From: Gemmatimonadales bacterium
Lineage (GTDB): Bacteria; Gemmatimonadota; Gemmatimonadetes; Gemmatimonadales; GWC2-71-9
Direction of reading: 5' to 3'
DNA length: 32,540 nucleotides
Assembly (NCBI GenBank): GCA_025928645.1
Contig: JAICJD010000023.1
Coordinates: forward strand, 1 to 32,540
The notes beneath the pieces are model-generated. The model was not told the DNA's origin, ran no database searches, and saw only the letters and a program-made list of their open reading frames with translations. The position numbers were made by a program, and so were the translations under genes. The first letter of the stretch is position 1; each line of letters opens with the position of its first letter. Shown piece after piece: positions 12,630-32,540 of the stretch.

Positions 12630-14003
12630 GTGTCGAGCGTCGTCGATCCCACCGCGGCGGACGCCCGCCCGCGCACCGGCGCGGGACGCGGCCGGCTCCT
12701 TCAGGTGCTCGGGATCAGCTTCGGCATCGCGGTGCTGGTCGGCAACACGATCATCATCGGCATCCTCCGCACCCCGGGCGACGTCGCCGCCCGGCTGCCC
12801 AGTCCCGCGCTCTTCATCGGCGTGTGGTTTCTCGGCGGGCTGTACGCGCTGCTCGGCACGATCTCGCTGGCCGAGCCGGGCGCGATGGTCGCCCGCTCCG
12901 GCGGACAGTATCCGTTCGTGCGGCGCGGGCTCGGCGAGTACCCGGGTTTCATCGTCGGCTGGAGCGACTGGATCTCGACCTGCGCGCCGATCGCGCTCGG
13001 CGCGATGGTCTTCACCGAGTACCTCGAGCCGCTGGTGCCGGCCATCGCCCGCCGGCACGTGGCGGCGGGCGTCGCGCTGGTGCTGGGGTTCGGGCTCGTG
13101 CTCTGGCGCGGCATCCGCGTCGGCGACCTGATGCAGCAGGTCCTGAGCGCGGTCAAGGCGCTCGCGTTCGGTGCCCTGATCGGCGCCTGCCTGCTCGTCC
13201 CGGTGCCCACGGGCATGAGCACCGCCGTGAGCGCGTGGCCGGCAGGCGTCTCGGTGATGACCGCCGCCGTGCTCGCACTCCAGGCGGTGATCTACACCTA
13301 CGACGGCTGGACCGCCCCGCTCTACTTCGCCGAAGAGACCCGGAACCCTGGCCGGAACGTCCCGCGCTCGATGGTGTTCGGCGTGCTGGCCGTCATCCTG
13401 ATCTACGTGCTGGTGAACATCGCGTTCGTGCGCGTGCTCGGCATCCGGGGCATGGCCGGCGATCCGTTCGTCGCCGCGAGCGCGGGCAAGGCGCTGTTCG
13501 GCAATCCCGGTGATCTCGTGATCCGGCTGCTCGTCCTCCTCTCGATCCTGAGCGGAATGAATGCCTGCGTGCTCATGGCGCCGCGGATCATGCTCGCGAT
13601 GAGCCGCGACGGGCTCCTGCCGGAGGCGTTCGTCACCGTGAACCCGGGCGGGACGCCGAGCGTGGCGCATTGGACCGCCATCGGGGCCGCCATCGCGTTC
13701 ATCGTCACGGGCACGGTCGAGACCGTCATCGCCCTCTGCGCGTTCTTCTTCGTCGCCAACTACCTGCTCTCGTTTCTCAGCGTGTTCGCGCTCCGGATCG
13801 AGGAGCCGGCCACGCCGCGGCCGTGGCGCGTGCCGGGCTATCCCTGGACGACGGGCATCGCGGCCCTAGGCTCGGTCGCCTTTCTCGCAGGCTCGGTGGT
13901 GAGCGACTGGAGCAACAGCTGGAAATCGATCCTGCTGCTGGCGCTGAGCTACCCGGCGTACCGGTTCGTGCTGGCGCGGCGGAGAGCGGGCGCGCCAACG
14001 TAG
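12630..14003 (+). CDS. APC-family amino acid permease
   Basis: A 457-residue polytopic membrane protein with about 12 hydrophobic segments. The first helix has the APC signature (GISFGIAVLVGNTIIIGILRTPGDVA, described as residues about 28-53), and helix 3 carries EPGAMVARSGGQYPFVRRGLGEYPGF. It most resembles amino acid/polyamine antiporter-type carriers; the substrate is not determined. GTG 12630 is preceded by AAGGAGG (12619-12625) at 4 nt, a strong site. The gene lies 110 bp upstream of the DDAH-like hydrolase, in the same direction, so it may import a guanidino compound or amino acid for that enzyme (inference). Confidence 0.9.
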   Translation: MSSVVDPTAADARPRTGAGRGRLLQVLGISFGIAVLVGNTIIIGILRTPGDVAARLPSPALFIGVWFLGGLYALLGTISLAEPGAMVARSGGQYPFVRRGLGEYPGFIVGWSDWISTCAPIALGAMVFTEYLEPLVPAIARRHVAAGVALVLGFGLVLWRGIRVGDLMQQVLSAVKALAFGALIGACLLVPVPTGMSTAVSAWPAGVSVMTAAVLALQAVIYTYDGWTAPLYFAEETRNPGRNVPRSMVFGVLAVILIYVLVNIAFVRVLGIRGMAGDPFVAASAGKALFGNPGDLVIRLLVLLSILSGMNACVLMAPRIMLAMSRDGLLPEAFVTVNPGGTPSVAHWTAIGAAIAFIVTGTVETVIALCAFFFVANYLLSFLSVFALRIEEPATPRPWRVPGYPWTTGIAALGSVAFLAGSVVSDWSNSWKSILLLALSYPAYRFVLARRRAGAPT

Positions 14004-30471: not shown

Positions 30472-31122
30472 CTACCCGTCCGCGCCGCTCTTCACCGCCC
30501 TCCGCCCGACCTCGAAACAGCAGCGCAGCCGGGCCTCGACGTCACAACACTTGGCGACCGCGATCCCGGCGAACTCGGCGAGCAGGCTCTCCACCGCGTT
30601 GCAGGCCTCCGGGTGCCGCTGCGTTGCCGCCGAGAGCGGGCAGCCGTAGCCGCGAATCAGATAGCCTCCGGCGTGCTCCTCCACCTGGGCGACGCCGCCG
30701 AGCTCGTTGAGGAGCGCGCTCGCCGCCTCCGCCCGCTGCCGCAGGTCGCCGGTCGGCCTCGGCCGATCGGCCATCAGGCGCCGACCCACGTCGTGCATCA
30801 GCCCATCGAACTCTGCGGCATCGAGCCGCTCATCCAACACGTGCAGCAGCTCGGTCAGCACGGGCGCGTAGGCCCGTGAGAACATGAGCTCCGCCTCGGC
30901 GGTGAGGAGGTAGGTCCGCGCCGGCTTGCTTACGCCGCGGCGCGATTCCCCCTGCCCCACCAGCCCATCTCGTTCCAGTATGGCAAGCTGTGCCCGCACC
31001 GCGTTCCCCGTCAGGCCGAGTCCCCCCGCCAGTTCGTCGACCGTCATCGGGCCGCGCCGCAGCAGTCCCATGACCTGCCCGGCAGGGCTGGCGAGTAAAC
31101 GGTTCCAATACGGTACGCGCAT
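30472..31122 (-). CDS. SufR-like winged-helix regulator with C-terminal cysteines
   Basis: A 216-residue repressor-type protein. Residues about 5-75 form a winged helix (MTVDELAGGLGLTGNAVRAQLAILERDGLV). The C-terminal part resembles the iron-sulfur repressor SufR: YGCPL at 159-163, then CX12C (C161 and C174 in RHPEAC), followed by C192-C193 and C201-C202. Such cysteines can hold an Fe-S cluster that controls DNA binding; the exact ligands are not certain. The start at 31122 has GGGAGGAG just upstream on the minus strand. It diverges from the cytochrome lipoprotein across a shared 28-bp palindrome. No suf genes are present in the window. Confidence 0.8.
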   Translation of the reverse strand: MRVPYWNRLLASPAGQVMGLLRRGPMTVDELAGGLGLTGNAVRAQLAILERDGLVGQGESRRGVSKPARTYLLTAEAELMFSRAYAPVLTELLHVLDERLDAAEFDGLMHDVGRRLMADRPRPTGDLRQRAEAASALLNELGGVAQVEEHAGGYLIRGYGCPLSAATQRHPEACNAVESLLAEFAGIAVAKCCDVEARLRCCFEVGRRAVKSGADG

Positions 31123-31167
31123 CAGGGACTCCTCCCGGCAACGGTGATCCGGGGACCGCAGCGGTGG

Positions 31168-31195
31168 AGATTTTGCAGATTTATCTGGAAAATCT
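31168..31195. promoter_or_regulatory. 28-bp operator-like palindrome in the divergent region
   Basis: AGATTTT (31168-31174) is inverted at 31189-31195, and CAGAT-TT-ATCTG (31176-31187) shares the same centre, so 24 of 28 positions are symmetrical. It is AT-rich in a GC-rich genome and lies between the SufR-like gene and the cytochrome gene, where both promoters must be. It is the best candidate for the regulator's binding site. Confidence 0.75.
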
Positions 31196-31260
31196 TAGAT
31201 TGTGCCGTTCTGATAAAGTTAGCCTCGTCCCACCCATTCTACCCCAGGAGAGCCAAGCAC

Positions 31261-32481
31261 ATGCCAGTGAAGCACCTGGCCGTGCTCACCATGGCGCTGG
31301 CCGTTTTCGCCTGCGGCGACGACGCACGCCCCACCGAGCCCGGGTCGACCACCTCGATTGCGGCCGACTCGGCACAGGCCGCCCTCAATCCGGCCCTGGT
31401 TGCGCAGGGCCAGCAGATTTTCCGATTCGAAACCTACGGCGACGAGACCTTCTGGACCGACACTCTCCACCTCCACCGCGTGATCCGGAACGCCGTGAGC
31501 CCTAAGACAGCCCTCTCGGTCGGGCTCAAGGTCGATGTCGACGCCCTCCCGCACGAGATCAAGGCCGGAATCCGAAACGGCACGCTCGACCTGGACGATC
31601 CGGCCACCACCGTGGCGCTGCTCAAGCTGAATGCCGTGGTCGGCGTGGTAGGACAGGTGGACGCGCGGAACCGGCTCACCCGCGTGGGCGTGACCTGCGC
31701 GCTCTGCCATTCGACCGTGACCAACTCGCTCGCGCCCGGCATCGGCCACCGGCTCGACGGCTGGCCCAACCGCGACCTCAACGTCGGCGCCATCATCGCG
31801 CTCTCGCCCGCCCTCACGGCGCGGCAGAAGACCGTGTACAACTCCTGGGGCCCCGGCATGTACGACGCCAGGTTCAACCAGGACGGCAAGAACATGCCGG
31901 TGGTCATTCCGCCGGCGTTCGGCCTGCGCCACGTGAAGCGCGAGATCTATACCGGTGACGACACCGTCTCGTACTGGAATGCCTACGTCGCCATCACCCA
32001 GATGCATGGGCACGGCCGCTTCGCGGACCCGCGGATCAACGTCGCCGTCAACAACCCGCCGGATCTGGTCACGTCGAAGCTCAGGGCCCTCAAGATCTAT
32101 CAGTTCAGCCTCGAGAAGCCGGAGCCGCGGGACATCCCCGACCCCGACGCGGTCCGGCGAGGCCGAGCCTTGTTCCATGGCGCCGCCGGATGCGCGCGCT
32201 GCCATGCGGGCGCGCTCTACACCGATGTGAACAGGGGCCGCCTCCACACCGCCGCCGAGGTGGGACAGGATCCGGCAACAGCGGCGCGAAGCGCGACGGG
32301 ACTCTACCGCACCACGCCGCTCCGCGGGCTGTGGCATCCGCCCCAGCTGCGGGGACCGTACTTCCATGACGGCGGCGCGGCGACGCTGCGCCAAGTGGTC
32401 GCGCACTACGTCCGGCTTTTCGACCTTTCGCTCTCGCCACAGCAGAAGGAGGATCTCGTCGCCTATCTCAAGACTCTCTAG
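31261..32481 (+). CDS. Di-haem cytochrome c lipoprotein (MauG/CCP-like)
   Basis: A 406-residue exported lipoprotein: short leader, lipobox VFAC with Cys18 followed by GDD. It has two c-type haem motifs, CALCH (146-150) and CARCH (311-315), spaced as in two-domain di-haem peroxidases or MauG-like proteins. The C-terminal domain has LRGLWHPPQLRGPYFHDGGAATLRQVVAHY, typical of the electron-transfer/peroxidase family (residues about 346-375). A role in peroxide removal or periplasmic electron transfer is likely; the exact reaction is not known. AGGAG (31246-31250) supports ATG 31261. It probably is repressed or activated by the divergent SufR-like regulator. A short stretch of 59 bases after its stop holds nothing recognisable. 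Confidence 0.88.
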   Translation: MPVKHLAVLTMALAVFACGDDARPTEPGSTTSIAADSAQAALNPALVAQGQQIFRFETYGDETFWTDTLHLHRVIRNAVSPKTALSVGLKVDVDALPHEIKAGIRNGTLDLDDPATTVALLKLNAVVGVVGQVDARNRLTRVGVTCALCHSTVTNSLAPGIGHRLDGWPNRDLNVGAIIALSPALTARQKTVYNSWGPGMYDARFNQDGKNMPVVIPPAFGLRHVKREIYTGDDTVSYWNAYVAITQMHGHGRFADPRINVAVNNPPDLVTSKLRALKIYQFSLEKPEPRDIPDPDAVRRGRALFHGAAGCARCHAGALYTDVNRGRLHTAAEVGQDPATAARSATGLYRTTPLRGLWHPPQLRGPYFHDGGAATLRQVVAHYVRLFDLSLSPQQKEDLVAYLKTL

Positions 32482-32540
32482 CGGCGATCACCTTGCGACG
32501 GCGGCGGCATCCGGGCAGATTCTCGGATCCCCACCCTTCA

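Follow-up and report, generated by a model that had tools for sequence, protein, structure and literature searches.

SufR proteins act as repressors (PMC8593673, PMC6034842). The M. tuberculosis SufR, Rv1460, binds an Fe-S cluster, and its cysteines C203, C216 and C244 are each needed for function (PMC6034842), while the cyanobacterial SufR carries the cysteine set C-x12-C-x13-C-x14-C and recognizes the operator CAAC-N6-GTTG (PMC8593673). In V4R domains, a C-x7-C pair binds zinc in DmpR (PMC7264223) and modulates redox-sensitive DNA binding in MsvR (PMC3729527). The locus described here is made of pieces of known kinds, namely a SufR-like regulator (REG) and a lipoprotein of the di-haem peroxidase fold (CYT).

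The window, that is, the whole stretch of DNA analysed (32,540 nt), corresponds to one contig (C188) of a 3.9-Mb Gemmatimonadota genome that is 97% complete. REG and CYT are oriented in opposite directions and separated by 138 bp, within which a palindrome is found (Table 1). At its right end (32400-32540), the contig shares exactly 141 bp with contig C66, and contigs C8 and C250 share an overlap of the same length; these are assembly k-mer overlaps, which allow reading through into the adjoining contigs. From the overlap of C188 with C66, it follows that CYT is complete and that the next gene, a large one, has the same orientation.

Table 1. Features of the REG-CYT locus, in positions of the window
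Feature	Position	Strand	Basis or remark
REG	30472-31122	minus	216-aa ORF; Pfam HTH_5 above cut-off; SufR-like regulator
Cys201 codon of REG	30520-30522	minus	invariant, 52/52; matches Rv1460 C244
Cys193 codon of REG	30544-30546	minus	invariant, 52/52; REG-specific fourth cysteine
Cys174 codon of REG	30601-30603	minus	invariant, 52/52; matches Rv1460 C216
Cys161 codon of REG	30640-30642	minus	invariant, 52/52; matches Rv1460 C203
Putative operator, 28-bp palindrome AGATTTTGCAGATTTATCTGGAAAATCT	31168-31195	no strand	symmetry, matrix, relatives
Putative -35 of the CYT promoter, TGGAAA	31186-31191	plus	consensus scan and position in relatives
Putative -10 of the CYT promoter, TCTGAT	31209-31214	plus	17 nt past the -35; consensus scan
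CYT	31261-32481	plus	406-aa ORF; lipobox LAVFAC and two CXXCH motifs
First haem motif of CYT, CALCH (residues 146-150)	31696-31710	plus	both Cys and His invariant in relatives
Second haem motif of CYT, CARCH (residues 311-315)	32191-32205	plus	both Cys and His invariant in relatives

The preliminary description of this DNA had proposed REG as a SufR-like regulator, and this assignment is borne out. The best long match of the protein is TIGR02702 (SufR), at 34.7 bits and hence far under the curated cut-off of 178.8 for a SufR equivalog; the suf-linked homologue of the same genome is also below that cut-off (115.4 bits). Among Pfam families, the HTH alone was above cut-off. REG is composed of an ArsR-type winged helix (residues 1-84) and a V4R/Bet3-like cysteine domain (about 85-208), in which four cysteines, each conserved in 52 of 52 aligned sequences, are arranged as C161-x12-C174-x18-C193-x7/8-C201. 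Three of them have nearly the spacing of the SufR triad, C161-x12-C174-x26-C201 in REG versus C-x12-C-x27-C in Rv1460, whereas the SufR-like protein encoded in this genome has another residue in place of C193. Of the cysteine motifs pointed out at first, the CX12C (C161 and C174) and the two CC pairs (residues 192-193 and 201-202) are indeed present, but only one cysteine of each pair is invariant, C192 and C202 being cysteine in 26 of the 52 sequences. A FastTree phylogeny that also contained SufR-like and COG2345 proteins placed every REG sequence in one group, with modest support (0.65).

The AlphaFold model of REG (pLDDT 82, from a shallow alignment of 8 sequences) predicts a V4R/Bet3-like fold for the sensor domain. 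The best fold matches of residues 85-208 of this predicted model were BcsD, TRAPP Bet3 and the V4R sensors MopR, DmpR and PoxR, with Z scores of 10.7-11.8 and mostly an rmsd of about 3 over 120-133 residues. The Pfam V4R family (PF02830) was absent from the REG matches at E ≤1 and from the 25 commonest families among 22 REG members. Because of the matching spacings and the predicted fold, REG combines the SufR triad with a pair of the V4R-like type, and we infer that these two are structurally equivalent.

CYT proved to be the MauG/CCP-like di-haem lipoprotein that had been suspected. Together with its lipobox and two CXXCH motifs, it shows the bCcP/MauG fold from about residue 31-43 onward, with a Z of about 14 and matches to hydrazine synthase gamma, 6e1c (a MauG-like copper-homeostasis protein), BthA and MauG. 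Its C-terminal half matches the bacterial cytochrome c peroxidase profile (E = 1.4e-9), and the two covalent haem motifs in combination with this fold place it in the superfamily.

The palindrome in the intergenic stretch is symmetrical at 24 of 28 positions, that is, at 12 of its 14 pairs, as had been reported, and its layout is TTTTGCAG-N6-CTGGAAAA. Its symmetry is equalled in the window by a single other 28-mer, a GC-rich sequence near position 13,045, and the pattern of the palindrome, with up to 3 mismatches allowed, occurs a single time in the 3.9-Mb genome. A symmetric 28-bp matrix was iterated on the upstream regions of 51 REG relatives, the window being excluded; a site was present in 46 of these regions, with the consensus AATAAGTCAA(A/G)-N6-(C/T)TTGACWWATT. 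Among 32,513 positions of the window, this matrix ranked the palindrome first, in the exact register and with 17.5 bits, the next independent position scoring -5.2 bits. Scores as high were reached by 2 of 20,000 shuffled 28-mers and, when shuffled halves were mirrored into perfect palindromes, by 68 of 20,000, such that base composition alone does not explain the result. Most family sites have 25-45 bits; the window operator is therefore a diverged variant, in which TTTTGCAG-N6-CTGGAAAA replaces the family's TTGTCAAG-N6-CTTGACAA. An intermediate form, GTACAG-N6-CTGGAC, is present at locus L189. In the nearest relative (contig C87 of genome G003), whose REG is 83% identical, the operator reads AGATTATGCAG-GAAGTT-CTGGAGAATTT; 19 of 22 positions in the arms are kept and only 1 of 6 in the spacer, the pattern expected for a protein-binding site. 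On these comparisons, the palindrome is the putative operator of REG, and the earlier proposal that REG and the lipoprotein gene have it in common is supported.

Residue 39 of the REG recognition helix is Asp in most members, and Gly or His in several that have diverged operators. The residue thus seems to vary along with operator type, but locus L073 violates the rule, and we make no claim on it.

REG was detected in 89 of the 394 genomes surveyed in this phylum, and CYT in 59. The gene pair is conserved in synteny: 22 genomes have 25 pairs in which the two genes are no more than about 5 kb apart, and in 22 of these pairs they diverge. A recurrent order is seen in which REG is followed, in the divergent direction, by genes for DUF4142, a cupredoxin, CYT, a Rieske/FAD oxidoreductase and the GTP cyclohydrolase FolE, some of them missing at some loci; the window holds the two-gene form of this full conserved locus. 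DUF4142 is the commonest direct partner of REG, divergent and at most 1.3 kb away at 37 of 52 REG genes, and CYT is divergent within 1.3 kb at 19 of the 52, rates that are biased because this sample was picked partly by linkage to CYT. The preliminary description had named the lipoprotein gene as the only neighbour of REG and suggested an Fe-S-based redox switch rewired to periplasmic peroxide or electron-transfer defence. The first point holds within the window, but in most relatives DUF4142 adjoins REG, and instead of a lone rewired pair there is a clade that extends across the lineage and has a regulon to itself.

The extent of the regulon was assessed with a matrix trained on REG promoters only. 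In 1.148 Mb scanned, sites of at least 20 bits were located at 45 REG promoters, at 11 CYT promoters not linked to REG, at 1 Rieske/FAD promoter and at 2 other places. In the four-contig genome G102, both matches to the core pattern with 1 mismatch sit at known members, so the regulon looks narrow. Strong operator-like sites are seen 5' of unidentified genes at L199:9240-9267 and L214:10192-10219, and these are possible further members. A secreted protein without a Pfam match is encoded between REG and CYT in the closest relative (L063:9078-9830), and proteins of this type recur at two other cytochrome loci, L214 and L217. At L081, L082, L200, L210 and L256, Rieske/FAD-cytochrome genes lie near a classical COG2345 regulator and are mostly divergent from it; this regulator stands in place of REG and the REG operator is absent, which is a regulator swap.

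The genome under study has one REG paralogue (REG2), on contig C8 and 41% identical, as well as a SufR-like gene on contig C168 (L080) beside sufB, sufC, sufD and sufU, sufD being assigned by its similarity to the sufB sequence and by its position. No suf genes were noticed near REG at the loci listed, which agrees with the initial reading that Fe-S assembly genes are missing beside it; the SufR-like gene at the suf operon is a separate one, and REG is not the SUF regulator. In the joined C8/C250 locus (L079, L332), REG2 is followed by DUF4142 and a cupredoxin. The module is thus split here between two regulator-operator pairs with different operators, and it may reasonably be supposed that the two pairs are insulated from each other. 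At this locus, the half-sites GTCAAG and TTGACA are separated by more than the 8 nt that usually lie between GTCAA and TTGAC. No site above 1 bit was seen in seven stretches of this genome that carry the Rieske/FAD gene or other genes for DUF4142, the C8/C250 operator itself being on C8. When the genome was searched for the family consensus with mismatches, the matches were mostly GC-rich background, and the short pattern was no more frequent than its reversed-pattern control; given this background level, we claim no further regulon members there.

Beyond the Gemmatimonadota, members of the CYT family are frequent in Burkholderiales, Lysobacter and Flavobacteriales. The genome collection was scanned with the cytochrome, such that outside the phylum REG was tested next to cytochrome genes only. 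At those loci, the search for a REG-type regulator yielded a single gene, distantly SufR-like, at L259 of a gammaproteobacterial MAG, and no convincing REG operator was found, AT-rich genomes giving background matches. DUF4142, cupredoxin, FolE or ferritin-like secreted proteins often accompany the cytochrome there, and an ECF-type sigma gene is present at 25 of 80 cytochrome loci, nearly all outside the phylum. Since the same gene company appears with an ECF-type sigma instead of REG, the module is common to phyla and the regulator differs; this suggests that the cytochrome clusters outside the phylum constitute a stress module common to several phyla. Such clusters, variable in their further genes, were seen among L267, L272, L273 and L280-L315, in Burkholderiales, Flavobacteriales and others.

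The position of the operator relative to the promoters bears on how REG may work. The putative -35 of CYT sits within the right half of the operator, where relatives have TTGACA; in these, the right half-site is TTGAC(A/T), with a TA...T-like -10 about 17 nt further. In the window, the putative -35 and -10 agree with the consensus at only 8 of 12 positions. From the comparison of clade, operator, partner genes, predicted fold and invariant cysteines, we infer, with a probability of about 0.6, that REG is a dimeric, metal- or redox-gated repressor acting on the palindrome, and that oxidation or loss of its site induces CYT. By default, a REG dimer would occupy the 28-bp palindrome, covering the -35 of the divergent CYT promoter and lying near its own promoter, 45 bp from the REG start codon; it would probably block its own gene too, so that expression of both genes would be kept low. 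The four invariant cysteines in the V4R-like C-terminal domain would form a metal site that responds to redox state, with a [4Fe-4S] cluster like that of SufR as the likeliest candidate. Once this site is lost or oxidised, REG would leave the operator, and CYT would then be induced as one member of an envelope redox module formed by DUF4142, cupredoxin, di-haem cytochrome, Rieske/FAD oxidoreductase and FolE. The company of these genes suggests a possible role in defence, be it against peroxide, photo-oxidative or nitrosative stress.

The Fe-S cluster is favoured because the SufR triad is kept, zinc or thiol chemistry being given about half that weight. The predicted V4R/Bet3-like fold makes the latter a serious alternative all the same and the main rival, if a less likely one. 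Here, REG would repress through the same operator while its four cysteines bind zinc or become linked in a disulfide, as in a thiol switch of the MsvR type. The spacing C193-x7/8-C201 is that of C232-x7-C240 in MsvR, with its redox-sensitive DNA binding, and also that of the pair in DmpR, where zinc is held by C151, E172, C177 and C185. However, SufR is the closest sequence family of REG, the three cysteines required in the Fe-S-binding Rv1460 are kept at nearly the same spacing, and Pfam V4R is not among the matches of the window REG. It is improbable that REG is a ligand-responsive V4R regulator in which a small hydrophobic molecule (aromatic compounds, tetrapyrroles or quinones being candidates) enters the barrel, with a structural role for the metal site of the cysteines. 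Although the sensor domains of MopR, DmpR and PoxR align over 123-126 residues with a Z of about 10.8, and DmpR binds phenol as well as zinc, BcsD and TRAPP, which are unrelated proteins with this fold, also reach a Z around 11, the sequence affinity of REG is to SufR, and its regulon is a redox module rather than a catabolic pathway. More improbable still is that REG activates the CYT and DUF4142 promoters. The weak -35 and -10 in the window could need help, but SufR is a repressor, and the -35 itself falls within the operator, which in most relatives contains a consensus TTGACA. An operator over the -35 is the usual placement for a repressor. On promoter geometry and the SufR precedent, REG is likely to repress rather than activate. 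That the palindrome arose by chance or as a structural feature such as a terminator, the gene pair being incidental, can practically be dismissed, as the single site in the genome is outweighed by the matrix, synteny and unlinked-promoter tests and, REG and CYT being divergent, there is no converging gene to terminate.

In the open-access literature, no description was found of the REG clade, its operator, its regulon or the joint SufR/V4R cysteine set, and the abstracts of open-access papers on DUF4142 name neither a regulator nor a function. The switch between REG and CYT belongs to a phylum-wide control system for a few envelope electron-transfer proteins, apparently undescribed before. More tentatively, REG could represent a phylum-wide class that joins the SufR cluster cysteines to a V4R-type metal hairpin, which would make SufR-like Fe-S sensors and V4R redox/zinc sensors one structural family, and that controls an envelope redox module found elsewhere near ECF sigma genes, the operator of the window copy having been insulated after duplication. 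The REG system gives DUF4142 and a widespread family of di-haem lipoproteins, neither with an assigned function, their first regulon open to testing, in a phylum with few characterized regulators. It also provides a possible structural bridge between the Fe-S sensors of the SufR kind and the metal and redox sensors of the V4R kind, and a natural example of paralogous repressors in the same genome whose operators have diverged.

Compared with known systems, CYT resembles bCcP, MauG, MbnH and BthA in its two CXXCH haems and in its fold (Z of about 14 over 222-238 residues), but it is a lipoprotein with an unusual N-terminal half and about 20% identity, and it scores under the curated cut-offs of MauG and NF040606. 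The COG2345-type ArsR-like regulators, divergent from Rieske/FAD-cytochrome genes at L081, L082, L200 and L210, have the general architecture of REG, but they form a separate group in the tree, with another cysteine spacing and without the REG operator at those loci. The methanogen MsvR, a self-regulating protein linked to oxidative stress, has likewise an ArsR-type HTH fused to a cysteine-bearing V4R domain with C-x7-C spacing; it is, however, archaeal and has three conserved cysteines, and the likeness of REG to it is one of predicted fold and spacing only. The SufR proteins of Synechocystis, M. tuberculosis (Rv1460) and S. avermitilis share with REG an HTH followed by C-terminal cysteines, and autoregulation is probable in REG as well. 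Unlike SufR, REG is not at a suf operon, carries the extra invariant C193 and has an extended operator, TCAAG-N6-CTTGA plus AT arms, that has diverged in the window to TGCAG-N6-CTGGA. C161, C174 and C201 of REG nevertheless match C203, C216 and C244 of Rv1460. In the register of the SufR operator CAAC-N6-GTTG, the REG family consensus has CAA-N8-TTG, whereas the window copy reads GCAG-N6-CTGG.
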